From: Leptolyngbya sp. FACHB-8 | GTDB taxonomy: Bacteria; Cyanobacteriota; Cyanobacteriia; Elainellales; Elainellaceae | Reading direction: 5' to 3' | NCBI RefSeq assembly: GCF_014695575.1 | Contig: NZ_JACJOO010000070.1 | Coordinates: 1-54,628, forward strand | Length of the DNA: 54,628 nt | Part shown: one piece after another, positions 8,422-27,856 of the stretch | How positions within the stretch are numbered: the stretch's first letter is position 1 | How the letters are laid out: each line of letters begins with the position of its first letter | Position numbers and translations under genes: made by a program | The notes under the pieces: model-generated | The model's input: only the letters and a program-made list of their open reading frames with translations | Told to the model about the DNA's origin: nothing | Databases searched by the model: none

Positions 8422-8458
8422 AAAAAGAAGGTGGATGCTTTGCATCCACCTTCTTTTT
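8422..8458 (+). terminator. Intrinsic terminator of the DedA gene
   Basis: A 17-bp perfect stem with a TTT loop ending in six T residues, 14 bases past the stop codon. A family B element has inserted at the end of this T-tract; the duplicated target CTTTTTTGT includes the whole T-run. Confidence 0.8.
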
Positions 8459-8461
8459 TGT

Positions 8462-8544
8462 CAGCAATTCTCAGCTTTGAAACCCGAAAATAGCCCGCCG
8501 AAGGCAGGCTATTTTCGGGTTGGATTCCAAAATGAGAATTGCTG
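8462..8544. mobile_element. Palindromic MITE-like element, family B copy 1
   Basis: An 83-bp element with ends CAGCAATTCTCA and TGAGAATTGCTG, enclosing one hairpin (AACCCGAAAATAGCC with complement, loop GAA). It is flanked by the 9-bp direct repeat CTTTTTTGT (8453-8461 and 8545-8553). The same element, almost base for base, is at 25930. It lies between the DedA gene and the SRPBCC gene. Confidence 0.9.
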
Positions 8545-8605
8545 CTTTTTTGTAAGAGAACTTCAAAACCCAGCTTTTGTGATGTATTGAGATATGCGGG
8601 ATAAC

Positions 8606-9061
8606 CTAAGGTTGCGCATTTTCATAAGCGCTCTGTGCGTAAGTGCGGAAGCGCTCCAGGTCTGCATGGATGGTGGATTCGACTACCCGTCCTAAAAACA
8701 GGTTATCCATCAGCTTGCCCAGGATGCCGGGAATACCATACGAAATGGTGAGCTTAACGATGCTGCGATCGCTTCCCCGGTCATAGAAGCGAATGGCTCC
8801 TCGATTAGGCAAGCCATCTACGGATTCCCATTGAATGATTTGATACTTTGTCAGTTTAGTAATGCGAGAGAGCCAACTAAACTCAAATCCGCCCGAGGCC
8901 AGCTTCCACCGGGAAAGGCTGGGGTCCTCTTCTAACACTTTGACCGAGTCAATCCACTTCATCCAACGGGGCATCTGCTCCAGATCTGACCACAACTCCC
9001 AGACTTGCTGCACAGGAGTTTCCACTTCGATCTGTACGGTGTGTTCGAGCCAGTCAGTCAT
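8606..9061 (-). CDS. SRPBCC-fold (polyketide cyclase/dehydrase-like) protein
   Basis: A 151-residue single-domain SRPBCC (START-like) protein. The opening EHTVQIEVETPVQQVWELWSD and the following MPRWMKWIDSVKVLEE are typical of the cyclase/dehydrase family, and the C-terminal helix begins about residue 115. These proteins bind hydrophobic ligands in a deep cavity. It follows crtQ by about 125 bases on the same strand; a similar neighbour beside the zeta-carotene desaturase gene is, from memory, found in Synechocystis (slr0940/slr0941). A carotenoid-binding or delivery role is my inference; no catalytic residues can be named. Confidence 0.82.
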   Translation of the reverse strand: MTDWLEHTVQIEVETPVQQVWELWSDLEQMPRWMKWIDSVKVLEEDPSLSRWKLASGGFEFSWLSRITKLTKYQIIQWESVDGLPNRGAIRFYDRGSDRSIVKLTISYGIPGILGKLMDNLFLGRVVESTIHADLERFRTYAQSAYENAQP

Positions 9062-9186
9062 GGGAAACAGCGGGTAGAGGTGGATGAATGAAGGTAATGT
9101 CTGGAAAAAACACCTGAAAAATTAACCTCTAAAGTAAAGGGAGGTTGCCACTTCCTGCATGGAGCGCTGAAATGGCAACTTAAATC

Positions 9187-10656
9187 CTAATATCGGAACA
9201 GCCCTTCTCCCTGAACCTGGTAACCAGTCGGCTCCAAAATAGCCGCTGCTGCCTGCTTACCGGAGATTGTGGCCCCCTCCATACTATCGATGTAGTCCTG
9301 AGCTGTGTAACTTCCCGCCAGGAAAAAGTTGGGGATCGGTGTTTTTTGAGATGGGCGGTAAGGCTCCATCCCGGGTTGTTCCCGGTAAAGGGATTGGGCC
9401 AGCTTCACCACATTGAACCAGGTCATGGTGAGCTCACGGGATGAGGGGAATAGATCATGAATCTGCTTGAGCGCATGCTGAGCAATGTCCTCATTACTCA
9501 TTTTGATGAAGGGATCGCCGGGGGTTAGCACGACCTGCATCAGTGAACCCTGTCCCTCGCGGTAATAGTTCTTCGGGCTAGAGAGCGCCAAATCGGAGAA
9601 ACAGGAGAAATCTGCATCAGCACTATAGAGCAGGTTATCAATCCCTGCCGCATGGTTCACTTGCTTGCGCTGCTCATCGTCCTCCATTTCAGTCACCCAG
9701 CCATCAAAGCGTAGCTGAACAGTTACCACAGGAACGGCTTCTAACTTATAAATGTTGTCAAATTGAGGCCACTGTCGCCACTCCGAAGGGAGGAGCCGAT
9801 GAATGCCCGGTACGTCACAGGCTGCCAGGTAAGCGTCAGCGGTGACAATTTCTTCAGAGTCACCGTTGGCGATCGCCAACCCTGTCACCCGCGTCTCACC
9901 GTTCTGCTCCTCAAACAGGATGCGTCGGGTTTGGCGGCGGGTATGAACTTTCGCGCCCCGTTCTTGAATGTAGTTCAGGATGGGCTTGTGCAAATACTCA
10001 TCCGGGGAACCTGCCAGCATATTCAGCCGGGATGCTTCTGTTTTGGCAGCAAACATCATAAAAATGGTGAGCATACACCGGGCAGAAATGTTCTCGGTAT
10101 CAATAAATCCGAGAGCAAGGGCAATGGGATCCCACATGCGCTTGAGGCTGTGCTGAGATCCTCCATGCTGCCGGAACCAGTCAGCAAAGCTAATATCGTC
10201 CAGCGCCCGGATCAGTTTCATGGCCAGGTCATAGTTGAGCAGGCCTGGAACGATGGGACTGGTCCCGAGGGCGATCGCATTCTGAATCTTGTCTTGAAGA
10301 GTTAACTGGCCTGTGGTGAAGAAGGCTTTCAGGCCGTGGAAAGGAGCCCCAATCAGGAAGCGAAAATCGAGGGTGCCAATATCACCGCCACGATTAATAA
10401 AGGTGTGGACATGCTCCTTGGGCAGCAGGTTTTCAAAAGCACCGACCCGCTGCATCAGAGCAAACAGGTTGTAGTAGTTGTTGAAAAAGACATGCAGCCC
10501 CATTTCAATATGGTTGCCGTCTCCATCAACCCAACTGCCCACCTTACCGCCAATGAAGGTGCGAGCCTCAAAAATCTCGACCTCATGGCCTGCATCGGAT
10601 AGTTCTACCGCTGCGGCCAACCCCGCCAACCCCGCGCCTACGATTGCAACACGCAT
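9187..10656 (-). CDS. crtQ: Zeta-carotene desaturase
   Basis: A 489-residue FAD-dependent plant-type zeta-carotene desaturase, which converts zeta-carotene through neurosporene to lycopene at the membrane. The Rossmann motif [21 protein letters not shown] opens the protein. [26 protein letters not shown] and the C-terminal [18 protein letters not shown] with SGKQAA are family signatures. I placed the start at the ATG at 10656, preceded by AAAGGGA; the open frame continues upstream to 10779, but those 41 residues include translation of a palindrome. It is followed by the SRPBCC gene on the same strand. Confidence 0.93.
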
Positions 10657-10746
10657 CGAATCAATTGTCCCTTTCAGATTCTTTACGTATTGTAATGGAG
10701 CGATCGCCCCTTTTATTCCCATGCCATTGACTATTGCTATGACCGG

Positions 10747-10811
10747 GTTAGTTAGGACGTTAGAGGCTATTGAATGCATTGCCTACCATAGCTTCTAACG
10801 TCCTAACTAAC
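10747..10811. repeat. 23-bp inverted repeat upstream of crtQ
   Basis: Arms GTTAGTTAGGACGTTAGA and complement, 23 bases with one mismatch, and a 19-base spacer. It lies between the adenylate cyclase stop and the crtQ start, so it could separate the two transcription units. No target duplication is visible. Confidence 0.75.
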
Positions 10812-10916
10812 TATAGAGCGCGCTTTAAAGCTTGCTGGAAGGGCCTTTTCTTCGTACGCGAGGCCCACGAAAAAACTTTTCAGGGATAGGCCATCAATTT
10901 CCCGTTCTGCGATCGC

Positions 10917-12230
10917 TCAATTACGCCGAAAGATCGCGGAGTTGCGATTTTGGGTCTTCCCTTTCAGCAGATAGACTCGCATGCTGCCCTTTCCCTTAAC
11001 GCTGATTTCTCCCCGTTCTTCCAGGTCATAGCGCTTCTTAAGCCGCTGATAGACAGACTCTGTGACCTGGATACCGCCGGGCACACTGTAGGCTTCCATG
11101 CGGCTGGCGGTGTTCACAGTATCACCCCACAGGTCATAGATAAACTTTTTGACCCCAATAACTCCAGCAACCACAGGCCCCGAGTTGATCCCAATCCGCA
11201 TCTGAAAAGGACGGTCCGTGATCTCGCTGAAACGAACGATCGCCTGCTGCATATCCAGAGCCATATCGGCGATCGCCTCTAAGTGATCTGCCCGCTCAAT
11301 GGGTAACCCTCCTACGACCATGTAGGAGTCTCCAATGGTTTTGATTTTTTCTAAGCCATGGGTCTCTGCCAGAAAGTCAAACTCCGAAAAAATCTGATTG
11401 AGTAGATTGACAATCTCGACAGGCGGACGACCCGCTGACATTTCTGTGAACCCTACAATGTCTGCAAACAGTACGGAGACTTCGGAAAATTGCTCTGCGA
11501 TGGTGCGTTGGTCCTGCTTCAGTTGTTGCGCGACGGCTTCAGGCAGGATGTTGAGCAGCAACCGCTCAGACTTTTCCCGCTCAGCTTCCAGCTCTTTGAG
11601 AGCACGAAACTCAGCACGTTGTAGTCGTTCATAGAGAAAAACCGAAATATTGCAGATACTACAGAACCAAAACAGATATAACCAGAGTGAAATATTCCAG
11701 TCAGAACCGCTTATCTGCTTGAAATTCAGTACTCCATTGACTACCACATAGTAAGTCAGCACCCCTAGCTGAGCGAGTAGATGCAGCGGCCAGCGCACTG
11801 GCATCAACGTCGCCTGCGTAAGAAATACTAACGTCCACGAAAAAATCCCTGGAAAGGCTACTCCTTGCAAGGTGGCCCACAGCTGCTCAGTCAGGGTGAT
11901 TGACCAGGAAGCTCCCAGAAAGGTGACAGCCGGATAACTCCACCCCAAGCGACTGTTATGGAAAGCCAGCAACCCTGATAGGCACCCAAGAGATGCCGTT
12001 GCCATGATCAACCAGGCCAGCCCCTCGTCTGGACGAAAGTTGCTGGGGACTAACCGCAGCATAATAAAGGTAAGGTAGGCTGTGATGGCAATTTTTAACG
12101 TTAACCCCAGCCGCCGTCGAAGAAACTGCTGTCGCCAAATTACGTAGTCCTTCTGTTCCACAGGAAACAGCATTTTCATGGCCTGTTCCCAGAGCACCCG
12201 AATTCGTTGAATCAACGGTTTTACCTTCAC
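10917..12230 (-). CDS. Membrane-anchored class III adenylate cyclase
   Basis: A 437-residue protein. About six transmembrane segments occupy residues 30-205. A charged coiled-coil (LKELEAEREKSERLLLNILP) then leads to a class III cyclase domain (about 245-430). Metal-binding acidic residues are in LFADIVGFTEM and KTIGDSYMVVGG; the Lys in KTIGD and the Asp in YDLWGDTVNTASRM are the residues that select ATP over GTP, so cAMP is the expected product. The RMEA Arg fits the transition-state residue. The start is GTG at 12230. It has the single-domain layout of bacterial integral-membrane cyclases. The stimulus is unknown. It may be co-transcribed with the CCB gene upstream. Confidence 0.9.
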   Translation of the reverse strand: MKVKPLIQRIRVLWEQAMKMLFPVEQKDYVIWRQQFLRRRLGLTLKIAITAYLTFIMLRLVPSNFRPDEGLAWLIMATASLGCLSGLLAFHNSRLGWSYPAVTFLGASWSITLTEQLWATLQGVAFPGIFSWTLVFLTQATLMPVRWPLHLLAQLGVLTYYVVVNGVLNFKQISGSDWNISLWLYLFWFCSICNISVFLYERLQRAEFRALKELEAEREKSERLLLNILPEAVAQQLKQDQRTIAEQFSEVSVLFADIVGFTEMSAGRPPVEIVNLLNQIFSEFDFLAETHGLEKIKTIGDSYMVVGGLPIERADHLEAIADMALDMQQAIVRFSEITDRPFQMRIGINSGPVVAGVIGVKKFIYDLWGDTVNTASRMEAYSVPGGIQVTESVYQRLKKRYDLEERGEISVKGKGSMRVYLLKGKTQNRNSAIFRRN

Positions 12231-12408
12231 GAGTACCCTTCCGCAGTTTTAGAAGAACAGGGATGAACCTGTCTTTACAATAGCGATAGCTGATCCAGAA
12301 TCAATAGAAAAAAATAACTATCCCTGCTTCCGTCATTTTCATTAGCCTTGGGGTGGTTCTCGACGTTTAAAGGGGTAGGGTTTCAACCCCCGCCCTCCTT
12401 GAGCTTCA

Positions 12409-12957
12409 TTAGGCCTGGGGTGGTTCTGGATAAGGTGATAGGTTGAGCGATCGCTGAAGTTGTATCAACTCATCTCGGTGCGCTTTAACGGTCAAAACAT
12501 TCACCAGAGAGGAGGCATCTGTCTGAACTGCTTCTACCTGAAGGGCTACCCGTTCCCGCCGCCCGGCCTGTTTCCAGTAAAATACTCCTGCTACTGGCGC
12601 TAATAACGTGAGCCCTGGCAACACTAACCGTGCTGACGGAAATAGAATGGCCAGAACAAGCGTCAGACAAAGCAACCCCACTCCTGCTAAGGCACTCAGG
12701 AAAATCGCTAGAAACCAACTGGGGCGTACGGTTCCTTCGTAAATCACTTGATTCGTAGCTGCATCTACTGTGGCAATCTGATAGGCCCGCTCCGTGAAAT
12801 ACTGCTGTAAGGTTTCTAGAAAAGAAGTTTGCTCCCCTTCGGCTATGAGCTTGACCACTTCTGTTCGGTCTTTGACTGAAGCCCGAATGAAAAAGAATAG
12901 CCCTACGGCAAGCAGCAGGGTTAGCAGTACTGTTGAGGCAAGGACAGGAATATCCAT
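12409..12957 (-). CDS. Cofactor assembly of complex C subunit B (CCB-like)
   Basis: A 182-residue membrane protein with an N-terminal helix (VLASTVLLTLLLAVGLFFFIRAS), a soluble stretch, and two adjacent helices around residues 82-130. The order and the segment ASVKDRTEVVKL match what I know as the CCB (cofactor assembly of complex C subunit B) family, needed in chloroplasts and cyanobacteria to attach haem c-i to cytochrome b6. Whether it corresponds to CCB2 or CCB4 I cannot tell. The start is ATG at 12957. It is 178 bases upstream of the cyclase gene on the same strand; no functional link is implied. Confidence 0.72.
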   Translation of the reverse strand: MDIPVLASTVLLTLLLAVGLFFFIRASVKDRTEVVKLIAEGEQTSFLETLQQYFTERAYQIATVDAATNQVIYEGTVRPSWFLAIFLSALAGVGLLCLTLVLAILFPSARLVLPGLTLLAPVAGVFYWKQAGRRERVALQVEAVQTDASSLVNVLTVKAHRDELIQLQRSLNLSPYPEPPQA

Positions 12958-13659
12958 TGGTAGGAAGCCGAGGCACTAAAGGTATTTGGTAATAATCTGG
13001 CCTAACTTGAGGCTAGTTCTCTTTACCGCACATCCCTACTTTACGAGATTTTGCCAACTTCCTCATGTCCTCAGCCTTTTATTTTATGCCAATAAAGTAA
13101 AAGGCAGCTCGATGATAAAGCTAAGATATTTCTCCTTTAAATCCAGAAGTCATTCTACATTCTAGGCGCTTGCATCTCTCTTAAGGGAGATTTCTGTCTC
13201 AAGTTGTATACTTTTGTTTATGGAGTATGGTAATTTTGCATATATTGCTGTTGTTTAACTTCTATTTCTGAAATGGAAGTTAAGCATTCCTGGGATTGTC
13301 TGGTTCGAATGCTTCGATATGAATCAGTACATTCGTCTTTGAGAACAACCTTGATTAAATGCATGCGTAAAATGCATGCTTTTTGAATTCAAATTGGCAA
13401 TAGTAAGGGGGTAGAGACTATGTTCGCCTCTCTACCCCCGGAATAAGTCACACATTGCTACAAGTGTGCCGTTCAGTTTTTTGAAGTCAGCATTAAGAGC
13501 GGCGATTTTTATCTATCTTTCGGTAGACTTTCGCCATCCTGTTGGTTTAAGAACGGCATGACTTTAATAGACAATGAGCCCGTGGTCATAAAGATATCCA
13601 CGAAGAGCTGTTTTATCTTTTGCCTTGATTCTCAAGAAAAGTTGAGTTACTCCGACGGT
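12958..13659. other. Gene-free stretch, 700 bases
   Basis: AT-rich region with no convincing frame. It contains an 11-bp stem at 13407-13439 (GGGGGTAGAGA and complement). It probably carries the promoter of the CCB gene near 12960-13050 and the 3' untranslated region of the PadR gene. I see no RNA gene. Confidence 0.5.
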
Positions 13660-14025
13660 TTATGAGCTGACGAGTTGGTTATCTTTTTTTTTGGCGTAAT
13701 CACTCCATAGTGACGCCAACTCTTGAGCTTTTTGTCTCCAACTGGATGTGATTTGGTACATCCGCCGAGGTCGTCCTCGACCTTCAACCTTTTTCCAGTA
13801 ACCCGTGATGGCGTCAGCGTCTTCAAGGAACTTTAATGCGCTGTAGAGAACAGTATCCGAAAGACGGTAACTAGGATACTCTGTCTCCAGTAACTGAATC
13901 AGTTCTGTCCCATAAGAGTCATGCTCCAGCAATACAGCGAGAACATAACACACAGCAAGTTCTTTATTGAGGTAGAACGGCGGTGGGTTTTGGAAGAATC
14001 GATAGATTTGATCCAATGTAGTCAT
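13660..14025 (-). CDS. PadR-family transcriptional regulator
   Basis: A 121-residue winged-helix protein of the PadR family. The helix-turn-helix is in KELAVCYVLAVLLEHDSYG through DTVLYSALKFLEDADAITG, followed by the wing GRGRPRRMYQIT, which is very typical (GRPRKYY-like). The C-terminal part is one short helix, so it lacks the long dimerisation helices of full PadR proteins and resembles the short cyanobacterial forms, including the clock-related Pex group, although that identity is not shown. I chose ATG at 14025 over TTG at 14031. Target genes and ligand are unknown. Confidence 0.85.
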   Translation of the reverse strand: MTTLDQIYRFFQNPPPFYLNKELAVCYVLAVLLEHDSYGTELIQLLETEYPSYRLSDTVLYSALKFLEDADAITGYWKKVEGRGRPRRMYQITSSWRQKAQELASLWSDYAKKKDNQLVSS

Positions 14026-14697
14026 AACCAATGTGTCCAGGATGGCTCACTCAGAATTGACAGTCCCAAGGGGGCATTTTGAAAATGGGATTTTGCCGTT
14101 GAAGATCAACGACGAAGGGAGATACTAAGGAGAAAGACCTTAGGTAGCGCTTACAGGGTGGGGGCTTCCTGAAGCCTTAGGCTCAAACAGATGTCATTGT
14201 AGTAACTTAAAGCCTACAACTGCGTACCGTGTGAAATTCACAAACCAGTGGTTTTCACAGGGTGGCCGTATTGATTACTGGCTCTACGAGGCGATTACAT
14301 CCCCTCATCAGGTGAATTAGAACACTCGACTAGGAAAACACGTTTAAGTCGTTTTCCGGGATGACGCCGACTAGCATTCATTTCGATTCTAATCCCTGGA
14401 CAAATTTTCGTCTGTCAAACCCAAGGCATATTTTCTGGCTTCTGTCAGATTTTCGAACTGGGAAACGGCTGGTAACACGCGAACCCTCATATTAAAGTAA
14501 ATCTTTGACAAAAGGATTTATAGTGTGACAATTTCTTCAGTGTCGCTTAAGTGAACGAACTGCTCTGTCCTTGACATAACTGATGCAGGCCTAATAGCAA
14601 AGATAAGGGTGAGCATTTGCTCATGAAATACTACGAATGAGAGTCCTAAAACGTGACGTGCTCATCGCTATTTCTTAAAACATTCAGTAGAAGGGCT
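14026..14697. other. Gene-free stretch, 670 bases
   Basis: No protein frame of interest on either strand. It presumably contains the PadR promoter close to 14040-14150 and the untranslated 3' region of the response-regulator gene. No strong inverted repeat was found. Confidence 0.45.
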
Positions 14698-15354
14698 TTA
14701 AACCAACCCGGCGCGTAATGCAACAACAGCTGCCTGAACGCGATCGTCTACGGCTAATTTATTCATGATGCCACGCACATGGGTTTTTACAGTGTTAGGG
14801 CTGAGATAAAGTTCGGCAGCGATTTCAGGGTTGCTACGCCCTTCAACCATCAGCTTGAGCACTTCCACTTCCCGTTGAGAAAGTTGGGCGATCGCCGCTG
14901 AATCCACTTCCTGGCTCGGAGTTTTCAGGTGCTCAACCACCAAACGGGCAACGGCCGGGTCGAGATAACTGGCACCATCTCGAGCGGCATCAATGGCTGT
15001 TAGCAGACGTTCTACCGTTGTGCCTTTGACGCAATAAGCGTCAGCTCCACTGGAGAGAGCTGCAATTACTTCATTCTCTGTTGTATGAGACGTCAGCATA
15101 ACTACTCGGGTGTTGGGCAGTTCAGCTTTAATCCGCTCAGTGGCGGCGATGCCATCCAAACGGGGTAAGCCGATGTCCATTACCACAATGTCAGGCTTCA
15201 GTTTTTTGGCTTCTTCTACGGCCAGGTAGCCATCATCAGCACGACCAACGACCTCTAAATGGGGCTGGCTTGTGAGGGATTGCTCCAGGCCCAATTGCAT
15301 CATTGGGTCATCTTCAACAATTAAAACTCGGAGAACCTGGGCCGAATCGCTCAT
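14698..15354 (-). CDS. NarL/LuxR-type response regulator
   Basis: A 218-residue two-domain response regulator. The receiver domain (about 8-125) has the acidic pair EDD, phospho-acceptor Asp near residue 60 in VVMDIGLPRLDG, the switch Thr in MLTSH and the conserved Lys in YCVKGTT. The DNA-binding domain (about 155-212) has the LuxR signature LSQREVEVLKLMVEGRSNPEIA followed by LSPNTVKTHVRGIMNKL. It resembles the cyanobacterial Rre1/Ycf29 group, which is linked to stress and light signalling, but that assignment is a resemblance only. No histidine kinase is adjacent, so it is an orphan regulator here. Confidence 0.92.
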   Translation of the reverse strand: MSDSAQVLRVLIVEDDPMMQLGLEQSLTSQPHLEVVGRADDGYLAVEEAKKLKPDIVVMDIGLPRLDGIAATERIKAELPNTRVVMLTSHTTENEVIAALSSGADAYCVKGTTVERLLTAIDAARDGASYLDPAVARLVVEHLKTPSQEVDSAAIAQLSQREVEVLKLMVEGRSNPEIAAELYLSPNTVKTHVRGIMNKLAVDDRVQAAVVALRAGLV

Positions 15355-15593
15355 TATGTACTCCCCTAAAGAGCAGACAGAAACCAGTTTTGATTGTAGA
15401 GTCAGAACGCAGAACAGGATAGGGGGCGTCTAGGGTAGAAGGAATAGGGGGAGGGGGCTTCTGGGTAGAACGCTTGTGCTGAAGGACTTGTCAGTCTATC
15501 CCAATGATTTTTCCTCACAACTATTTTTATGAAGCCAACGTTAGGCAGTACGACCCAAAGTGTTCACCTGTGTTTGCATGTCATACATATGAA

Positions 15594-15664
15594 CAGGACT
15601 TACGCATTTGTGTTGTGGGTGGGGTGCTTTGCACCCCACCCACAACACAAATGCGTAAGTCCTG
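15594..15664. mobile_element. Palindromic MITE-like element, family C copy 1
   Basis: A 71-bp perfect palindrome starting CAGGACTTACGC and ending GCGTAAGTCCTG, with loop TTT. It is flanked by the 5-bp direct repeat ATGAA (15589-15593 and 15665-15669). It lies 240 bases upstream of the response-regulator start. Confidence 0.88.
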
Positions 15665-15857
15665 ATGAATAAGAACATAGCCGAAGATGCGTATTACACG
15701 TCTGACGTCAACTCATACAAACTGCGTTTGTGATGGATCGGTGAGCATGATTAAACACAAGACCCAAGATGTTTTGCCGTTAGCCTCGCGAGCAATACAA
15801 TATCTTAGGTTTGATGTCTAATGCTTGCTTTAAAGCACGCGTGAGTATCTTGGGTTG

Positions 15858-15917
15858 TAAGTTGAGATAGGGTTGAGCAGGCTAAGTGCTCAGCCTGCTC
15901 AACCCTATCTCAACTTA
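15858..15917. repeat. Perfect 26-bp inverted repeat
   Basis: Arms of 26 bases (TAAGTTGAGATAGGGTTGAG and on) with an 8-base loop, abutting family D copy 1 on its right. The right arm base overlaps the first bases of that element. Confidence 0.8.
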
Positions 15918-16021
15918 GGAGATTTCCAGTAATGAAATTACCCCCAGAATGTTGGTGCTTTGCCCGCGAAGCGGGCAAAGCACCAACATTCTGGGTAAAT
16001 TCTTATGCAGAAACCTCCTTA
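15915..16021. mobile_element. Palindromic element, family D copy 1
   Basis: About 107 bp, ending TTAGGAGATTTCC on the left and AAACCTCCTTA on the right, with a perfect inner hairpin of 25-base arms (CCCAGAATGTTGGTGC..., loop GAA inside GCGAAGC). CAAC occurs on both sides (15911-15914 and 16022-16025), a possible 4-bp duplication that the other copies do not confirm. Further copies are at 46100 and 54414. The repeat itself is open in one frame, which creates spurious small proteins. Confidence 0.8.
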
Positions 16022-16132
16022 CAACTGATTGAACGAGTGAGATGTTACGCAAATTTCGTATCTTCGCCCACATCAAGCTGCGGCATGTTGCTGCCATTTG
16101 AATAGGCTTTCCATTACTTTCTAACAACGTAC

Positions 16133-19051: not shown

Positions 19052-19081
19052 GGCCGGACGCCCCTTCTCGGATACCGAACT

Positions 19082-19759: not shown

Positions 19760-19771
19760 AACCTCGTAAAT

Positions 19772-19814
19772 TTAGGGGTGAACGTGTAGGGACCGCTCAT
19801 ACGTTCACCCCTAA
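19772..19814 (+). terminator. Hairpin after the SRAP gene
   Basis: A 14-bp stem (TTAGGGGTGAACGT with complement) with a 15-base loop, twelve bases past the stop codon and followed by ATTTT. It is a likely terminator for the xthA-SRAP transcript. Confidence 0.55.
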
Positions 19815-19844
19815 TATTTTGAAGGCATCAAACCTGAGTATGAA

Positions 19845-19905
19845 CAGGGCATATGTGTTTTTGTTAGATGTGTTTCACGCACCTAACAAAAATACATATG
19901 CCCTG
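19845..19905. repeat. Long imperfect palindrome CAGGGCATATGT
   Basis: Arms of about 23 bases with one mismatch, beginning CAGGGCATATGT and ending ACATATGCCCTG. It has the look of the MITE-like elements of this window, but no target duplication is visible. Confidence 0.65.
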
Positions 19906-20043
19906 ATTCCTTTTGCAGCTTTTGGGCGCACTGCATTTAACAGCTGCAAAGTCTACTGGGGCAAAATGCGTTGTGCCAATTCATGAAAACCGAATTACAA
20001 ATGACACATAATCCTACACTCTGGGTGAGAAGACATTAGGGAA

Positions 20044-22083
20044 TTGGCATTACCGCAATCGCTAAAAGCAATTCAGCATTGGTATCGGGCGATCGCCCCT
20101 CAGCTCCAAGAGGCCGCGCCTGAAATTCCTCCTGTTCGGCTTGAGCGAGGGCTATGTCTATTGGCCCTGGTGATGATGAGCCTGCCCCTCTGTGTGGATG
20201 GGGGGCTACTGGATTCATCGGTACTGGAGATCTGGGAAGCAGAATCAGACCGGGGTGACAGGCTCTGCGGGAAGGTGCGATCGCTATTGCACAGCCTGAA
20301 CCAACGCTATCATCTGGGTTTTCCGCTAAAACACTTGCCAGTATCCCTTCCTCTCTCGGTTGCTGCTATGGAGGAACTGCATCGAAAACTGAAGACTGCC
20401 CCTATTTTGATTGAAGAATTGGGCACAGCTTACGAACTGCTGATGGCGATTGGGAACGAGGGAGCCCAAGCCCGTAAGATTCAGGGAGCTTACTTTACCC
20501 CCTGGAAGTTGACCTGCTCGATGGTGCACCAGATCTTAGAACCTTTGCCTGATAAAGGGGCTACGATTCTCGATCCGGCTTGTGGAGGAGGTGCCTTTTT
20601 GCTGGCAGCCTATGAGCAACTGCTGCAACGCGAAGGGCCACTCGATGATGTAGAGCGTTGCCGGTTTCTAGAGCAACATATTTTTGGCATTGATTGGGAC
20701 CCTCTAGCGGTAGCCGTCACACGGCTTTCCCTGCTACTGAAGTTGCGGCAGGGAGGCTGGGGTTCTGGCCTGGCAGCCCCGGATTTACGACAATCCATTC
20801 ACTGTGGTAATAGCCTGGTGGAACTTGACGGTTCCTCCAGGGCCTATCGCTTAAAGGGGCAGTATTGGCAAAGGCGCTTTTCGGTCATCTTGGACCGGGG
20901 TGGATTTGATGGAGTAATCGGTAACCCACCTTACCTGGATGCGGAGGGAATGACTCGTCATCAGACCCTACTACGCCGGTATTGCACAGAACATTATCGT
21001 ACTGCCAAGGGTAATTGGGATTTGTTCTGTGTCTTTATTGAACGGGCGCTGTCATTATGTCGTGTTGGGGGGTGGCACAGCTTTATCGTGCCAAACAAAC
21101 TCCTGTCGGTGCCCTATGGGGCAGCGGTGCGATCGCTCTTAGCTACTGAAAATCGCCTAGTTCACATACGCGACTACTCCCGCATCCCGCTGTTTTCGGC
21201 AGCGGTATATCCCATTACTTACCGGGTTCAACATATACCTCCTAAGACCACCACAACGCCTCTATGCTATGAACACATGGCTAGTTTAGAGCGTATAGAA
21301 CGACAGACCTGGCTAGCGTACTCGACATTTCAGCGGGGCGATCGCCCCTGGCAGGTGTTTCAGAGTACGGGGCAGCAGAAGGCGATCGCCTCCTTGCAAG
21401 ACCTCAGTCCTCTTAGCCAATGGGCCACTGTGACGGATGCTGCCACCGTTGCTGAAGCCTATGCCATTCAATCCCTTGTCCAGGAAGCTCAGGAGGGAGA
21501 ACCCGGCTTTTCGTTCGTGAACAGTGGCACTCTCGACCGCTACCATATGCTCTGGGGCAAAAAGCCTCTACGTTATTTGGGTACTACTTATAATCGTCCG
21601 GTTATTCCTGCGGCATTCTGGGAGCAACTGCCATCTCGACGGTTATACCAGGCTCAACAACCGAAGATTCTGGTCGCCAGCATGACTCGCCACCTGGAAG
21701 CCTTTCTGGATGAGACGGGGGGCATTTTGGCAGGTAAGTCTACAACGGTTATTCTGCCGCGCCTCAACCCTTACTGGTTGTTGGGCTTGCTCAATAGTCA
21801 GCTAATCCATGTCTGGTTTCAGCAAACCTTTGGCGGGCATCGTCTCCATGGCGGGTACTTGCGGGTGGGCGCAGCTCAAGTGCGACAGATTCCCATCCGA
21901 TTACCTGAGGGGAAGTTGGGCGATCGCCTGACAAACCTGGTACGGCAACGAATCGCCCTGGCTCAGCATTTGCCTGGTAGCCCTGCTGAGTTGCAGGCCG
22001 TTGAGGCCGAAATTGATGCGCTTGTTTATCAGATTTACGGTCTTAACACTGACGATATTCAAGCAGTAGCCACCCATGGCTAA
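20044..22083 (+). CDS. Eco57I/TaqI-like N6-adenine DNA methyltransferase
   Basis: A 679-residue class I gamma-type DNA methylase. GAYFTPWKLTCSMV and the SAM-binding motif LDPACGGGAFLLAAYE (about residues 175-190) are followed by the catalytic motif IV NPPYLD near residue 294. The C-terminal third (from about 480) has a TaqI-like specificity region (SRRLYQAQQPKILVASMTR, GKSTTVILPRLNPYWLLGLLNS). The N-terminal 130 residues are helical with no nuclease motif that I recognise, so this is a solitary methylase or the M subunit of a decayed system. It starts with TTG at 20044 because a stop codon lies just upstream and no ATG is near; AGGGA precedes it at short spacing. The recognition site is unknown. 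Confidence 0.87.
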   Translation: MALPQSLKAIQHWYRAIAPQLQEAAPEIPPVRLERGLCLLALVMMSLPLCVDGGLLDSSVLEIWEAESDRGDRLCGKVRSLLHSLNQRYHLGFPLKHLPVSLPLSVAAMEELHRKLKTAPILIEELGTAYELLMAIGNEGAQARKIQGAYFTPWKLTCSMVHQILEPLPDKGATILDPACGGGAFLLAAYEQLLQREGPLDDVERCRFLEQHIFGIDWDPLAVAVTRLSLLLKLRQGGWGSGLAAPDLRQSIHCGNSLVELDGSSRAYRLKGQYWQRRFSVILDRGGFDGVIGNPPYLDAEGMTRHQTLLRRYCTEHYRTAKGNWDLFCVFIERALSLCRVGGWHSFIVPNKLLSVPYGAAVRSLLATENRLVHIRDYSRIPLFSAAVYPITYRVQHIPPKTTTTPLCYEHMASLERIERQTWLAYSTFQRGDRPWQVFQSTGQQKAIASLQDLSPLSQWATVTDAATVAEAYAIQSLVQEAQEGEPGFSFVNSGTLDRYHMLWGKKPLRYLGTTYNRPVIPAAFWEQLPSRRLYQAQQPKILVASMTRHLEAFLDETGGILAGKSTTVILPRLNPYWLLGLLNSQLIHVWFQQTFGGHRLHGGYLRVGAAQVRQIPIRLPEGKLGDRLTNLVRQRIALAQHLPGSPAELQAVEAEIDALVYQIYGLNTDDIQAVATHG

Positions 22084-22087
22084 ACGT

Positions 22088-22160
22088 TCGCAGGTTCCCA
22101 TAGAGTTGAGGAGGCTGAGTGTTCAACACTCGGTCTCCTTAACCCTATGGGAACCTGCGA
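22088..22160. terminator. Bidirectional hairpin between methylase and ssb
   Basis: Outer arms TCGCAGGTTCCCATAG with complement and an imperfect inner stem, lying between two converging genes (stops at 22083 and 22176). The position fits a shared terminator; no T-tract is evident. Confidence 0.55.
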
Positions 22161-22175
22161 CTGACTGAATTTGCC

Positions 22176-22661
22176 TTAAAACGGGATGTCGTCGTAGTCG
22201 ATGTCGTTAGCCGCTGCTACAGGTTGTGGGGCGGGTTTGCTCTTGGCAGCGGGAGCTGCGGTACGAGGGGCAGTAGTAGCCCGAGGGGCGGGAGCCTCAG
22301 CGGTGCGAGGGGCAGCAGCAGCAGGCTGTGCAACAGTACTGCTGGTGAGGCCACCTTCAGCAGTTACTTTGTGGATACGGGCTGCTGTCAACTCGGCCCG
22401 CTTTTCCTTGAAGCCTTCAGGGCGATCAACGGAGTTCATGCCAAGGCGGCCTTCAATAATGACGCGATCGCCTACCCGATATTGATCTTGAATTTCCTGA
22501 GCGAGATTGCCCCAGCCCACTACCTTTACTACAGCCGGTCGGTCTTCCTCACGAATTCCTGGGAACTGTACCATCATCTCAGCGATGGGTGTTTGGGTGT
22601 CGGAGGTATATCGTAGCTGCGGATCCTGAACGATCTCGGCCATCACAATAAAACTGTTCAT
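22176..22661 (-). CDS. ssb: Single-stranded DNA-binding protein
   Basis: A 161-residue SSB. The OB-fold occupies residues 1-105 (MNSFIVMAEIVQDPQLRYTSD, VVKVVGWGNLAQEIQ, YRVGDRVIIEGRL). A linker rich in Ala, Pro and Thr runs from about 115 to 145. The acidic tail ends DIDYDDIPF, the peptide that recruits repair and replication partners. This form is the usual cyanobacterial SSB, with MNSF at the start. It converges on the methylase gene. Confidence 0.95.
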   Translation of the reverse strand: MNSFIVMAEIVQDPQLRYTSDTQTPIAEMMVQFPGIREEDRPAVVKVVGWGNLAQEIQDQYRVGDRVIIEGRLGMNSVDRPEGFKEKRAELTAARIHKVTAEGGLTSSTVAQPAAAAPRTAEAPAPRATTAPRTAAPAAKSKPAPQPVAAANDIDYDDIPF

Positions 22662-22886
22662 CTGACTGTCTCCTGGCTGCTGGGGATGGCGCGTTCAAAA
22701 ATAATAGTACGCATGAACCATCCAGTTCTATACTAACAGGGGGTTGGGTTTACTCTAAATCAAAATTTGTCGGCAAACCATTGGGCACTTTCCGCAGGAA
22801 CGGTAAAGCCCACCTCTGGAGGCTGGGACAACCCAGTACTCCAATGTACAGGACTCTACCGCGAATGCCCTACGTAGGGGGATATC

Positions 22887-25454
22887 TCAAGCAAAATCCG
22901 CTGCTAGAGCTATATCCTCCAGCCCTAACTCCTGCTCGACAAACTCCTGAACAAAGCTGCGGTACTCCCGCAAGGTCTCATCGACCCAGCCGCGATCGTG
23001 GCTGTCGGCGTAAAGATGCACCAGAGGTTCGCCCGCATCGGGCAGAATCAGAATCCAGCTATCCCGGGCAGGGCTGAAAATTTTCACCCCGTCAATCAAT
23101 TCCAGGGATTCTGTATTGTGGGTTTCTACCAGATGCCGCATCAGGCCGCCCTTGACGGTCCAGGGGCATCGCACCGTCAGTGCTCGATGGCAAACCCGAG
23201 GCAACTCTGTCCGAATTTGAGCGAGGGTGCGGCGATCGTGACGATAGGGTGGCTGCTCTTGTAACGAGAGCATTTCCACCAGCTTTGCGATGCAGAACAT
23301 GGCATCAAAGCCAGGGTGCAGTTGGGGTAAAATGAAGCCCATTTCGCCACTGCCGCCTAGCACGACGCCAGGAATGGTATGACAGGCCTCCATTAAGGCG
23401 GTGGGGTTGGCCTTGGTGCGAACCACGTGGCCTCCGTGGCGACGAGCAATATGCTCGACAGCACTGGCAGCGTTGACGGGTACTACCACGGTTCCACCCG
23501 TATGCTGGGCCAAGATCATGTGAACCATTAAGGCTGTTAGTACTTCGCCACGGATGGGGCTGCCCGATTCATCGACCAGCACCAGTTGTTCACCATTGGC
23601 AGATACCTGCACGCCAAAGGTTGCTTTGAGGGCTTCGACGACATGGCCCAACTGGCTCAACAGGGCCTCACGGTCAGCCATTGTTGGGGCCGTTGGAGTG
23701 AGACTAGCGTTTAACACTACAGCATCGCAGCCGAACTTGGCCAGCATCTGGGGCAACACAGCTCCCGACACCGCATAGGCGTAGTCGATGACAAGTTTCG
23801 GGCTGCTATGACGAATCGCATCAACATGCAGCAGACGTTCAAAGCTGGTGCAGTAGATTTCGTTGGCCTGGGTCACGTAGGTAATGTTGCCAATTTCCTG
23901 CACCTGAGCCCGCCGGAAGTCTTCTTTGAAGAAAGCGCCTTCAATCTTCTTCTCGCGGGATTTGGTTAGGTTTATCCCTTTAGAGTCGAAAAACTCGATC
24001 AAGATGTGGTCAGAGCGCTCAGGGTGTACCCGGACGTGGATACCGCCAGCCACACCTCGGGAAGGAGCCACAGTTCGAGCGACTGGGATAGCAGTGGCTT
24101 CCAGATTGTAGATATGGACGCCCACAGACATCAGGCCCGAAATGAGCGATCGCGACACCATACGCGAAATATTACGCTGGTCGCGTGACACACTGACATA
24201 AGAGCCGGGCTTGAGAGTTGAGCCAAAGGCCGCTCCCAGGCGCACAGCAAATTCGGGGGTGATGTCCACATTGGCCAAACCCGAAACACCCCGTTGCCCA
24301 AATAGGTTACGGTGGGCCGCATGGCCCCAAATCAGGTTCATGTTGACGATGGCCCCCGGATCAATGCGTTTGCTCGGCCAAATTCGCACATCCGGGTTGA
24401 TGACAGATTCCTCTCCCACCACGGAGAGAGAGCCAACGATCGCCCCTTCCAATACATGGGCGCGCCGATCGATGCGTGTGCCTCGTGCTGCCACACAGGC
24501 TCTCAAGTGGGCTTCATCGCCAATGGTGCCCCCATTCCAGATGATGGGCCGCTTCAGGTCGGCATCGCTGCCAATCGTGACGTTGTCACCAATGACGGTG
24601 CCTGCTTCGATTTCGACTCGGGGGCCAATCCGGCAATTACTGCCGATCAGGGCCGGAGCCGAGATCCGTACGCTAGGGTCAATATAGGTGTTTTGTCCAA
24701 TCCAGAGGCCGGGCGATCGCTCCTCGTAGGCCACATCTAGCTTCACCTTGCGTTGCAGGGCCGCATACTGGGCATCACGGTAGGCATCCAGGTGACCCAC
24801 ATCGCACCAATACCCATTGGCTACATAGCCATAGATGGGCATGTTCTTCTCCAGCATCAGTGGAAAGAGATCCTTGGAAAAGTCGGCTTCCCGATTGGGC
24901 AGTAGTAGAGACAGGACATCCGCTTCCAGAATGTAGGTGCCTGTATTCACCGTGTCAGAGAAGATTTCGCTGCTAGAAGGTTTTTCAAGGAAGCGACGGA
25001 TGCGCTGTTGCTCATCCATAATCACAACGCCGAAATCTAGCGGGTTCGGCACAGAGGCCAGCACCAGGGTAGCTTTCCCGCCCTTTTCCCGATGGAAGCG
25101 GATGGCGTCAGTCAGATTAATATCGGTAATGCTGTCGCCACTAATGACTAGAAACGTCTCATCCAATAACTCCGCAACGTTGCGAACACAACCTGCCGTA
25201 CCCAGAGGTTGTTCCTCCTCCACGGCATAGGTCAGCTGCACGCCAAATTCTGCCCCATCGTGAAAGTAGTCACGCATCACGTCAGGTAGATAGTGCAGCG
25301 TTGCAATGATTTCGGTGATATGGTGACGTTTCAGCAGATCGATAATGTGTTGAGCAATGGGGCGATTGAGAATCGGCACCATCGGCTTGGGCAGGTCACA
25401 GGTCAAGGGTCTTAGCCGCGTCCCCGACCCTCCGGCCATTAGCACTGCTCGCAT
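22887..25454 (-). CDS. GDP-mannose pyrophosphorylase-like / degenerate phosphomannomutase fusion
   Basis: An 855-residue three-part protein. Residues 1-235 are a nucleotidyltransferase (MRAVLMAGGSGTRLRPLT, with PLGTAGCVRN, ISGDSITDIN). Residues 250-365 are a left-handed beta-helix of hexapeptide repeats. From about 385 it is a phosphohexomutase fold (RMVSRSLISGLMSVGVHIYN). In the mutase part the catalytic serine loop (usually TxSHNP) reads VRVHPERSD near residue 475, and the metal loop (usually DGDGDR) reads SANGEQ near 620, so mutase activity looks lost. The C-terminal GEMGFILPQ segment remains. It probably makes or regulates NDP-sugar for surface polysaccharide. It is monocistronic here, with ssb downstream on the same strand. 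Confidence 0.88.
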   Translation of the reverse strand: MRAVLMAGGSGTRLRPLTCDLPKPMVPILNRPIAQHIIDLLKRHHITEIIATLHYLPDVMRDYFHDGAEFGVQLTYAVEEEQPLGTAGCVRNVAELLDETFLVISGDSITDINLTDAIRFHREKGGKATLVLASVPNPLDFGVVIMDEQQRIRRFLEKPSSSEIFSDTVNTGTYILEADVLSLLLPNREADFSKDLFPLMLEKNMPIYGYVANGYWCDVGHLDAYRDAQYAALQRKVKLDVAYEERSPGLWIGQNTYIDPSVRISAPALIGSNCRIGPRVEIEAGTVIGDNVTIGSDADLKRPIIWNGGTIGDEAHLRACVAARGTRIDRRAHVLEGAIVGSLSVVGEESVINPDVRIWPSKRIDPGAIVNMNLIWGHAAHRNLFGQRGVSGLANVDITPEFAVRLGAAFGSTLKPGSYVSVSRDQRNISRMVSRSLISGLMSVGVHIYNLEATAIPVARTVAPSRGVAGGIHVRVHPERSDHILIEFFDSKGINLTKSREKKIEGAFFKEDFRRAQVQEIGNITYVTQANEIYCTSFERLLHVDAIRHSSPKLVIDYAYAVSGAVLPQMLAKFGCDAVVLNASLTPTAPTMADREALLSQLGHVVEALKATFGVQVSANGEQLVLVDESGSPIRGEVLTALMVHMILAQHTGGTVVVPVNAASAVEHIARRHGGHVVRTKANPTALMEACHTIPGVVLGGSGEMGFILPQLHPGFDAMFCIAKLVEMLSLQEQPPYRHDRRTLAQIRTELPRVCHRALTVRCPWTVKGGLMRHLVETHNTESLELIDGVKIFSPARDSWILILPDAGEPLVHLYADSHDRGWVDETLREYRSFVQEFVEQELGLEDIALAADFA

Positions 25455-25859
25455 ACGCCCTCCCCTTTGCCTGTGTTTGGTTCAACTATCACGCTGCATA
25501 CACCTTAAAAAGAGGGATGTTCTCAATCGGAAAATCCCTGGTTCTTGTTCCAATCTAGCCATTCGAGAAGGGGAATGGCTACGCCACAGGTCGACCCGTG
25601 AATCTACTTCAACTGTGACAGAAATCCCCGATCTCGACAGGGTTGTAATTTTTTTTTGCATGGCAAATGGTTCCATGCATCAATTTTGTAGCTTTGAAAT
25701 CAAAATCTACAGATACAGAATGATGCAGGGTGTTATTTGTGCCAAGTTGAACGTGCCAGAAATAACGTCTACGCCCTTACATTCCTTTCCCATCCAATGA
25801 GGTATGGGAGGGGAGTGTGAGATCTCCCGCAGTCCCTTCCCATATAGCCCATATAGCAA
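25455..25859. other. Gene-free stretch with one hairpin
   Basis: No convincing gene. A hairpin at 25803-25844 (TATGGGA... and complement, imperfect) marks its right end. The rest may carry the promoter of the fusion gene. Confidence 0.4.
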
Positions 25860-25925
25860 TTATGGCAAAGACTGAGAGTAGGAACCTTAGCATGCAATGT
25901 TCCCACCCTCAAGTCTTTGCCATAA
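25860..25925. repeat. Imperfect palindrome TTATGGCAAAGACT
   Basis: Arms of about 27 bases with several mismatches (TTATGGCAAAGACT and complement at the outside). The right base of the palindrome is part of the target duplicated by family B copy 2, so this repeat was there first. Confidence 0.65.
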
Positions 25926-25929
25926 GCAA

Positions 25930-26012
25930 CAGCAATTCTCAGCTTTGAAGCCCGAAAATAGCCCGCCGAAGGCGGGCTATTTTCGGGTTGGATTCCAAAA
26001 TGAGAATTGCTG
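25930..26012. mobile_element. Palindromic MITE-like element, family B copy 2
   Basis: An 83-bp copy nearly identical to that at 8462, with ends CAGCAATTCTCA and TGAGAATTGCTG and a GAA-loop hairpin. It is flanked by the 9-bp direct repeat CATAAGCAA (25921-25929 and 26013-26021). It lies upstream of the 59-aa small gene. Confidence 0.92.
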
Positions 26013-26178
26013 CATAAGCAATCTTTCGACTGCTGTAGCTGACTTGATTGGAAAATGCTGCAGGAACGTTACATCGGAGTTACAGAATCGGTTGACGAAA
26101 GACCATTTTGAGAGCCCTCCTTTACACTGAGGGGTAGAGACATTTTCATGGGTTATCCCTGAATTAAGGAGATGAATT

Positions 26179-26358
26179 GTGGCAGTACTTATTACTATTC
26201 TCGTCCTGGGAGTCTATAGCGGCGGAATGTACAAATTTTGGAAAGGCTTCAATCGCACCAACTTTAGCCAGAATCGTTTAATGCTGACTTTGTGTTGGCC
26301 TGTGTTTATTTTTAACCCGTCCTACCGGCAAAACTTTACTCGGGCTCTAAAAGGTTAA
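26179..26358 (+). CDS. 59-residue membrane-like small protein
   Basis: A GTG-initiated frame of 59 residues beginning AVLITILVLGVYSGGMYKFW after the start, with a hydrophobic N-terminal helix, a basic middle (KGFNRTNFSQNR), a second hydrophobic stretch (LMLTLCWPVFIFNPSY) and a basic end. The Shine-Dalgarno AAGGAGA sits at optimal distance (26166-26172), which strongly supports translation. A hairpin follows at 26354. I recognise no family; it looks like a small, membrane-associated, conserved-type protein. Only 81 bases separate it from the methyltransferase downstream. Confidence 0.78.
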   Translation: MAVLITILVLGVYSGGMYKFWKGFNRTNFSQNRLMLTLCWPVFIFNPSYRQNFTRALKG

Positions 26359-26390
26359 TGATTGTGGGGCTTAGCGCCCCAATCATTAAC
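26354..26390 (+). terminator. Hairpin at the end of the 59-aa gene
   Basis: Stem GTTAATGATT-GGGGC with complement, one bulge, overlapping the stop codon. It lacks a T-run. It may be a terminator or an attenuating structure before the methyltransferase. Confidence 0.5.
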
Positions 26391-26439
26391 TATTTCTGGT
26401 GTTTATCGTTCAATCCTCTGTTTTTTGCCGAGCCTCCCC

Positions 26440-27198
26440 ATGTCTAGCTCGTCTGACCGTTCTTCAGCCTCTCAAAATTTGACAAACTTTCTAGCGAATG
26501 CCCAAGCGAAGCATCACCGGACCGATGGTTGGCAACCGATGATGGCGGCGATCGCCCAACGGTTCAACCGAGAATATCAGCGTCACCCCTTTGAGGTGCC
26601 TGACGAGGTCAAAGAGATGCCCGTTTACCAGGAATGGAAAGCTGGGTTATTGGCAGATAAAACCGTATCGCCTTTCTGGGAGTTGGCTCAACCTCGCAAG
26701 CAACAACGCTGTCTTGATATTGGTTGCGGGGTGAGTTTCCTGATTTACCCCTGGCGTGACTGGCAGTCTCTCTTCTTCGGGCAGGACATTAGCACATTTG
26801 CTTGTGAAACTCTTAACTCCCGTGGCCCTCAGCTCAACTCCAAGCTGTTTAAGGGGGTGAAGCTGGGGGGAGCGCACGAGTTGCAGTACGAGGGGGACCA
26901 GTTTGATCTGGCGATCGCCACTGGCTTCAGTTGCTACTACCCTCTGGACTACTGGTCGGCCGTGCTGGCAGAAGTGCGACGGGTTCTGAAACCCGATGGT
27001 CTGTTTGTGTTTGATGTGGTGGATACAGAACTACCCACAGCTGAGAACTGGGCTATTTTGGAAACCTATCTGGGAGCCGAGGTTTTTCTAGAAAGCCAGA
27101 ACCATTGGCGGCAACTGTTGGAAAGCCAGAATGCCGAGGTGCTAAAGCAGCGGCCGGGAGAAATCTTTCGATTGTTTAAGGTGCGATTCCGCCGGTAG
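26440..27198 (+). CDS. Class I SAM-dependent methyltransferase
   Basis: A 252-residue methyltransferase. The SAM motif is RCLDIGCGVSFLIYPW (about residues 94-110), the acidic strand-2 residue follows in FGQDIS, and motif-like LAIATGFSCYYPLDYW and EVRRVLKPDGLFVFDVVD complete the Rossmann core. The N-terminal ~90 residues are helical and polar (ANAQAKHHRTDGWQPMM). I chose ATG at 26440; a longer frame starts at 26362 but crosses the hairpin. Substrate is unknown. Confidence 0.85.
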   Translation: MSSSSDRSSASQNLTNFLANAQAKHHRTDGWQPMMAAIAQRFNREYQRHPFEVPDEVKEMPVYQEWKAGLLADKTVSPFWELAQPRKQQRCLDIGCGVSFLIYPWRDWQSLFFGQDISTFACETLNSRGPQLNSKLFKGVKLGGAHELQYEGDQFDLAIATGFSCYYPLDYWSAVLAEVRRVLKPDGLFVFDVVDTELPTAENWAILETYLGAEVFLESQNHWRQLLESQNAEVLKQRPGEIFRLFKVRFRR

Positions 27199-27250
27199 CC
27201 TGTCAGTGCTGAACGTGCACCCTGCACCTGTCCCAGGTTAAACTCTGAAG

Positions 27251-27295
27251 TTCAAACCAAAAGAGTAGGGCTTAGCCCTACTCTTTTGGTTTGAA
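27251..27295 (+). terminator. Perfect 22-bp hairpin after the methyltransferase
   Basis: Arms TTCAAACCAAAAGAGTAGGG and complement, 22 bases each, very short loop. It lies 50 bases past the stop and may terminate transcription; another 13-bp hairpin (AAATGTCTGACCT with complement) lies at 27327-27365. Confidence 0.55.
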
Positions 27296-27365
27296 TCAGA
27301 CCTTTATTCAGTTGGTTTAAAAAGAAAAATGTCTGACCTCATAAGCCCCCAAAGGTCAGACATTT

Positions 27366-27642
27366 CACCTGTAAGGACGCTTTCCTAACCAGAAAAGCCG
27401 ATCGACTTGATTGCCCCCTAGTCTTCACGACCTTTCTGAATGCGTTCTCCAGAAGTGATCTCATTGTGCATGGTTTAGCAGCTTTTTCACGTCCAGACAT
27501 ATACGGAATTTGTAACTTTTACCTCCAGCAATCCCTGAACCCACTCCGTGATTCCCGTAGTCTCCACTATTTCAGCAAACTCAAGCTGGAGTCTTCCTGT
27601 TACGGCTAGTGACAAATCTAAGCGTTAATCAGGATGAGTGGC
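27366..27642. other. Gene-free stretch before family B copy 3
   Basis: Nothing I can name on either strand; possible frames are short and lack a ribosome site. Confidence 0.4.
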
Positions 27643-27774
27643 CAGCAATTCTTATTTTGAAATCAGGCCCAAAAACCGCGAGCCTTTGGCTCACGGTTTT
27701 TGGGCATCAAAGCCAAGAGTTCATGCCCTACGGGCATGAACTCTTGGCTTTGATGCCCATACTGAGAATTGCTG
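27643..27774. mobile_element. Palindromic MITE-like element, family B copy 3 (different interior)
   Basis: A 132-bp element with the family B ends CAGCAATTCT and TGAGAATTGCTG, flanked by the 9-bp direct repeat ATGAGTGGC (27634-27642 and 27775-27783). The interior is unrelated to copies 1 and 2: it holds two hairpins, one CCCAAAAACCG with complement and one CATCAAAGCCAAGAGTTCAT with complement. It lies 74 bases upstream of the next gene. Confidence 0.9.
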
Positions 27775-27856
27775 ATGAGTGGCTCTACCATTTGGCGAGG
27801 ACGTTTTGGAGTGTTAGTCTCAAAGGACGTGCTAATGCGCTTTTTACCCTAATCCT

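Follow-up and report, generated by a model that had tools for sequence, protein, structure and literature searches.

The 54,628 nucleotides of contig NZ_JACJOO010000070.1 from Leptolyngbya sp. FACHB-8 (positions 1 to 54,628, hereafter the window) hold three short elements with the same ends, and the question they raise is how one pair of ends came to enclose what look like different interiors. The original prediction took movement to need the ends only and the palindromic interior to be replaceable cargo, completely different in the third element. Our analysis suggests another answer, namely that the three are copies of a miniature inverted-repeat transposable element (MITE) mobilised by an insertion sequence (IS), and that its palindromes have been homogenised, loop-flipped, extended and shortened by template switching. 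We give this reading a probability of about 0.75. Copy 1 is an 83-bp one-hairpin MITE on the reverse strand at 8462..8544, bounded by perfect 12-bp terminal inverted repeats at 8462-8473 and 8533-8544; the arms of its hairpin 1 (8482..8520) lie at 8482-8499 and 8503-8520, enclose the loop GAA and, judged by eye, contain one mismatched pair. Copy 2 (25930..26012, reverse strand) is likewise an 83-bp one-hairpin MITE, with hairpin 1 at 25950..25988 and the loop GAA at 25968-25970. Copy 3 (27643..27774, forward strand) is a 132-bp full-length two-hairpin MITE of subfamily A, with left end CAGCAATTCTTA and right end TGAGAATTGCTG; the subfamily names A, B and C are labels coined in the present analysis. 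Its hairpin 1 (27668..27704, loop TTT at 27685-27687) is homologous to the sole hairpin of copies 1 and 2, and its hairpin 2 (27701..27759, arms 27701-27728 and 27732-27759, loop TAC) is missing from them. The window copies share the 12-bp ends CAGCAATTCTYA/TGAGAATTGCTG and are flanked by three different perfect 9-bp duplications, each read directly: CTTTTTTGT at 8453..8461 and 8545..8553 for copy 1, CATAAGCAA at 25921..25929 and 26013..26021 for copy 2, and ATGAGTGGC at 27634..27642 and 27775..27783 for copy 3. Coordinates, ends and duplications were all as originally predicted.

Copies 1 and 2 had been called nearly identical, which they are (81 of 83 bases), and copy 3 had been credited with two unrelated hairpins, a description that did not survive alignment. 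When reversed, copy 2 aligned with copy 3 over all 83 bases, 65 of them identical, across a single 49-bp gap. With the full-length copy L009 (1501-1632) it was identical at 83 of 83 bases outside one 49-bp gap that holds hairpin 2, and in close relatives of L009, for example L204:9704, the repeat CTGAGA stands at both ends of the 49-bp stretch. Copies 1 and 2 are therefore inverted relative to copy 3 and one hairpin shorter, copy 3 is the full-length form, the interiors are homologous, and no cargo has been swapped in the window. The short form without hairpin 2 was represented by eight copies in the census described below, of which six have a perfect duplication and another has a duplication with 2 mismatches; a ninth site, C69:24432, lies outside these eight. 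Since most short copies have their own duplications, the short form itself seems to be mobile. Because it is rare and two-hairpin copies occur in another genus, it presumably derives from the full-length form by deletion and is not ancestral.

The end motif CAGCAATTCTNA was found 142 times forward and 135 times in reverse in the 6.93-Mb draft genome (labelled G000), compared with 1 + 1 for a reversed-pattern control. From 106 genome stretches and the earlier loci we extracted 150 distinct copies, a census that covers 228 of the 277 exact ends (49 left out) and 198 of 224 18-base ends, so that the family has at least this many copies. Of these copies, 103 were exactly 132 bp long, 128 fell at 125-142 bp, 18 were below 100 bp and 4 had other lengths; 140 were no longer than 132 bp, the longest measured 260 bp, and together they make up 0.28% of the assembly. 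Nine copies had been admitted with the help of their duplication, and duplication statistics were for this reason restricted to the 141 picked on ends alone. The proposal that further genomic copies should show 9-bp duplications was borne out: the duplication was exact in 90 of the 141, and the flanking 9-mers agreed at 8 or more of 9 bases in 117, whereas eight neighbouring offsets gave 0-2. An origin from a single duplicated segment of the chromosome, which the original prediction had named as a possible refutation, or a chance family of palindromes, is vanishingly improbable: duplications and flanks differ between copies, the backward pattern was nearly absent, and nothing spoke in its favour. 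The family has the short length without a transposase gene, the terminal inverted repeats (12 bp) and the target duplication of fixed length (9 bp) that mark the MITE class. The three window copies overlap no listed open reading frame of at least 100 amino acids, and among the 56 of 150 copies that had 390 bp of sequence to either side and no more than 2 mismatches in the duplication, one insertion interrupts a stop-free frame of at least 150 codons, compared with 1,375 of 2,000 random positions; at 100 codons or more, the counts were 17 of 56 and 1,663 of 2,000. Four contigs of the draft (C14, C32, C48 and C51) begin inside copies of the family, 112-113 bp from the other end, which indicates that the assembly breaks at this repeat.

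Pairing within the hairpins was counted in the 103 of 150 copies of exactly 132 bp, 98 of which had been picked on ends alone. Watson-Crick pairs filled 4,016 of 4,120 stem cells (97.5%; 40 column pairs in 103 copies). When the 3' letters were redealt, pairing averaged 84.5% and reached at most 85.7% in 200 shuffles, and when the register was slid by 1-3 columns it fell to 16-35%. At 14 of the 40 pair columns, two or more Watson-Crick types were each present in at least 5 copies. A 3-nt loop, lying outside the stem, sits in the middle of each hairpin, and in the frame of the ends both loops occur in both orientations: AAA 23 and TTT 26, GAA 19 and TTC 26, and 9 others for loop 1; GTA 31 and TAC 26, GAC 8 and GTC 11, GAA 9 and TTC 10, and 8 others for loop 2. 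Overall the orientations stand at 42:52 and 48:47, approximately 1:1, with no sign that the two hairpins flip jointly (Fisher p 0.40). Among seven groups of copies identical outside the loops, four contain a loop in both its orientations. A minimum spanning tree built from these 103 copies, which ignores recombination, has 23 flips in each loop, with 19 and 23 other loop changes, and 2.7 changes in the average unpaired column (120 over 44 columns). Two rare forms are in keeping with such copying between arms. In L144 (137 bp), hairpin 1 is a 26-bp perfect stem, 5 bases longer than usual, and the five extra bases of its right arm are complementary to the left flank. L156:10712 is an 89-bp element with a perfect duplication, and 86 of its 89 positions are palindromic, the exceptions being the 3 in the middle.

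The window also contains a second, unrelated palindromic MITE at 15943-15995 and 46128-46180 on the forward strand and at 54440-54492 on the reverse strand. In the 8 copies of this second family found in the stretches of DNA analysed, the 25-bp stems are perfect throughout, the changes are paired, and the loops read GAA in 5 and TTC in 3 in the frame of the flanks. It is conceivable, although we would sooner bet against it, that palindrome arms are overwritten by their partner arms often enough to randomise loop orientation both across the MITE family and across this second one. The process has precedents in the literature. When template switching takes place between the two arms of an inverted repeat, it makes the arms identical and inverts the spacer, and ten spacer inversions, TTC/GAA changes among them, are described in yeast coding genes (PMC8604942). 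Histories of rRNA are reported to show an excess of multiple compensatory changes and of loop inversions, and no excess of single compensatory changes or of the two combined (PMC8794818). Identical arms and an inverted spacer are common to those cases and ours; the difference is that here both orientations occur throughout one repeat family in one genome.

Stems that stay paired while their letters change could instead be maintained because selection favours a folded RNA or a DNA cruciform, such as a terminator, an mRNA stabiliser or a structure that helps the transposase. The covariation at 14 of 40 pair columns would fit this explanation, as would the very stable folds of the window copies (z of -11.2 for copy 1, -11.2 for copy 2 and -13.7 for copy 3, each folded whole) and the recurrence of a 131-bp two-hairpin layout with perfect duplications and diverged stems in a second genus, g12 (L240 and L241). 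Selection on pairing does not, however, predict loop orientations of 1:1 or a stem lengthened by five bases complementary to the other flank, as in L144. One-sided decay is common, other genomes retain MITEs that combine these ends with different interiors, and no Rfam family reaches its threshold within the window. We therefore consider selection an unlikely source of the pairing. A little less likely still is homologous recombination or gene conversion between copies, which in alternative registers along the palindromes would produce both the flips and the paired changes. The evidence for it is L179:401-673, where two copies of the family stand in tandem with the 9-bp site ACACTACAA present three times and the second member reads, by eye, as a chimera of a subfamily B left part and a subfamily A right part. 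In that same chimera, however, hairpin 2 takes its arms from two different types, which is the reverse of homogenisation; the stem extension of L144 needs no second copy, and the same flips appear in the second MITE family, of which 8 copies were found.

Tandem arrangement is not confined to this locus: in G161, a 9-bp spacing also separates two other MITEs that have these ends. In subfamily B, one variant of hairpin 2 (CTGAGAGTTCCTG, 9 nt and its complement) agrees with the end at 11 of 13 bases, and tandem junctions exist. We do not claim that hairpin 2 was born from a junction of right end, 9 bp and left end in tandem copies, as subfamilies A and C and the copies of genus g12 resemble the end less, judged by eye.

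The mobilising element was sought in 60 genomes, labelled G000, G001 and so on, with the FACHB-8 genome included. The 18-base ends were found in 27 of them. In the related genome G023, paired ends 1,420 bp apart surround an open frame of 435 amino acids, an arrangement that constitutes an intact IS. It is flanked by the 9-bp duplication CATCGCCAG on both sides, two further copies have CCTACTGTC and AAACCTGCC, and its ends CAGCAATTCTCAGTATGG and CAGCAATTCTCATTTTGG resemble both MITE ends. The MITE ends CAGCAATTCTCA and the duplication length are thus those of this IS, which differs from the MITE in encoding a transposase, and the IS with matching ends that the original prediction had called for exists outside the genome that carries the MITEs. 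Relatives of the IS include one in G010 (72% identity, duplication GAGGAGAGG), one in G043 (51% identity, 1,515 bp, duplications CTAACCCTG and TTCAGGGTA, ends less alike) and one on a plasmid of Anabaena cylindrica PCC 7122 (1,876 bp between ends, duplication GGCAACGAC). A transposase homologue was present in 16 plasmid records, 11 of them from Nostoc, Calothrix, Anabaena or Gloeothece. One of the 16, from Gloeothece verrucosa PCC 7822, is labelled "ISNCY family transposase", where ISNCY means "not classified yet"; this protein is 48% identical to the G023 transposase, and a scan around its gene turned up no pair of ends with a 9-bp duplication.

An IS4- or ISAs1-like parent had been anticipated from the duplication length, and the transposase gives signals of this kind. 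The residues D127, D216/D217 and E336 are common to five transposases and presumably form a DDE triad like that of IS4 and ISAs1 enzymes. PF13808 was weakly matched in all five members and PF01609 in two of five; the combination of a PF13808 N-terminal domain and a PF01609 DDE domain is linked to the ISAs1 family. These signals are weak, the G023 protein scoring 17.4 bits against PF13808 (cut-off 32.3) and 21.6 bits against PF01609 (cut-off 23), and the NCBIfam models for IS701 and IS4 membership were likewise missed, with 20.6 bits for IS701_3 where 170 are needed and 20.5 for IS4_2 where 152 are. A search of solved structures returned nothing relevant. Because the Pfam and NCBIfam scores lie below their cut-offs and one homologue is labelled ISNCY, we do not file the parent IS under a named family. 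A scan of named organisms, which may omit the source genome and very near ones, returned 2 records. One is an Anaerolineae metagenome-assembled genome (contig PMCF01000427.1), in which the matched site itself has no such duplication, and a 111-bp element (L228:479-589) has end-like repeats and the perfect 9-bp duplication GACGCCGAC, hinting that the IS family reaches beyond cyanobacteria. The other, from Ruminococcaceae, shows no paired ends flanked by a duplication; it is perhaps a chance match.

Elements of 111-398 bp with the same or very similar ends, perfect 9-bp duplications and unrelated-looking interiors occur in other genomes (L040, L046, L048, L054, L060, L214, L221, L222, L223, L224 and L228), the interiors being judged by eye and by scoring at most 14 candidates per genome. 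Two elements of G013, L041 and L219, were left out of this list because their hairpin is possibly a relative of hairpin 2. The IS ends also delimit a second class of MITE, 132-154 bp long and with a subterminal motif like TGAGAAYNNTTCTCA, which occurs in three families of the taxonomic class (L214, L224, L223, L046, L059, L261 and L263, in G023, G007, G033, G030, G059, G073 and G066). The idea of movement needing the ends only fits elements with these ends and other interiors. The idea of a replaceable interior holds for them too and fails in the window, where the interiors are homologous. Fixed ends with modular palindromic cargo, copy 3 being a cargo swap, could draw on the loci just listed (L228 aside). 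Against it, 128 of the 150 copies in the FACHB-8 genome are full length (125-142 bp), copy 2 is an exact shortened full-length copy, and no swap event was seen; we regard this explanation as very improbable. The two 260-bp copies (L210:401 and L193:401) appear, by eye, to have a different hairpin-bearing element nested within them, not a replaced interior.

The transposase was matched in 24 of the 60 genomes and in none of the other 36, among them the FACHB-8 genome and G001 of the same genus. In the former there were 0 matches at E<=0.001, and the best match of a profile built from five relatives had an E value of 0.35 over 22 positions. Seven PF01609 matches in that genome were considered as the parent IS and set aside, since none of their loci has an end with at most 1 mismatch (the best has 2 mismatches and is unpaired). 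An autonomous partner was thus not detected in the same draft genome, which to our knowledge is not a strict requirement for a MITE. In G007, where contigs break inside the IS, the same search detected fragments at contig ends, so a collapsed multi-copy IS in the FACHB-8 genome should have left traces. As the transposase is unmatched in the draft, the family copies there look orphaned. In G001 the 18-base ends are absent and the MITE found no match. Parts of the region match G001 at 69-88%, and the alignment at copy 3, the only copy aligned, shows no MITE in G001 and is too diverged to show an exact empty site. Genus g12 has homologous MITE copies in two of its genomes, G012 (7 places) and G025 (5 places), so the MITE family is probably older than its copies in the FACHB-8 genome. 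It either entered or expanded in the FACHB-8 genome once that lineage had parted from G001, or G001 lost it. A class-wide pattern matched 8 of 145, and its gap limits exclude the 132-bp copies, so that it gives no estimate of MITE spread.

Taken as a mobile element, the family is ordinary, with a likely parent IS identified outside its own genome. We propose that this parent, since lost or passing through, for example on a plasmid, would have supplied the transposase, which cleaved at the ends and placed every copy into a target cut with a 9-bp stagger. The full element is built as end, hairpin 1, hairpin 2 and end (132 bp), the short form presumably arising from it by deletion. During DNA replication, template switching at the palindromes would copy one arm from the other and carry the loop across inverted, and the same process may lie behind the stem extension, the whole-element palindrome and perhaps the hairpin loss. 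Several observations weigh against this proposal. No flip appears in three of the seven groups whose members are identical apart from the loops. On the spanning tree, one-sided stem changes outnumber two-sided ones by 123 to 66 (41 pair columns), and all 40 pairs are perfect in 40 of the 103 copies, leaving 63 with at least one unpaired stem position; either arm correction is slow relative to decay, or it acts mainly in copies that are still moving. Recombination between copies seems to occur, to judge by the L179 chimera, and could also flip loops, and selection for a folded transcript is possible. With regard to the parent, the G010 relative has one irregular end, ends 1,420 bp apart in G018 and G015 had no matching 9-bp duplication in the scan, and in a draft genome the missing IS could be an assembly gap.

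Covarying stems are usually taken as proof of a selected RNA structure, and the family offers a test of how often template switching alone yields that signal. If arm overwriting is as frequent as suggested above, perfect covarying stems would be a by-product of replication or of the mobilisation cycle and would not point to a function as RNA, and repeats of this kind would mislead any detection of structured RNAs that relies on covariation. The symmetry of loop orientation provides a countable trace of arm copying in more than 100 sister hairpins. With more than 100 similar two-hairpin copies, and the fixed ends as an outside frame, loop inversion, arm correction, stem extension and hairpin loss can be counted against point mutation. 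In addition, about 150 copies without a detectable transposase make the family a candidate for hit-and-run mobilisation.

The family shares with bacterial MITEs at large, RUP, NEMIS, Nezha and MITEAba12 among them, its short, non-coding nature, terminal inverted repeats, target duplication, ends in common with an IS, location mostly outside long frames and strong folding. It differs from bacterial MITEs generally in that no autonomous partner was detected in the same genome, and here the approximately 1:1 loop orientation and paired stem changes were measured over 103 copies. REP/BIME elements are not known to make a target duplication, and the 9-bp duplications found here speak against membership of that group. 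The ends, moreover, are CAGCAATTCT, whereas REP/BIME elements, which are moved by RAYT, are described as palindromes tagged GTAG/CGTC (PMC3733652). Nezha, a cyanobacterial MITE, is proposed to be moved by an end-sharing ISNpu3-like IS (PMC3049150), and its original description (Zhou et al. 2008) is cited in PMC3733652, PMC10969869 and PMC3049150. We liken our family to Nezha as a cyanobacterial MITE probably moved by an IS. In a literature search of limited coverage on MITEs, cyanobacteria, hairpin loop inversion, template switching and covarying cyanobacterial palindromes, no paper was recognised as describing the family, and its end sequence turned up in two Salmonella papers.

Among the 25 longest of 38 pairs of inverted repeats in the window, further long ones lie at 25-95, 15594-15664, 22088-22160, 31777-31893 and 49072-49158, and these are perhaps other hairpin MITE families.

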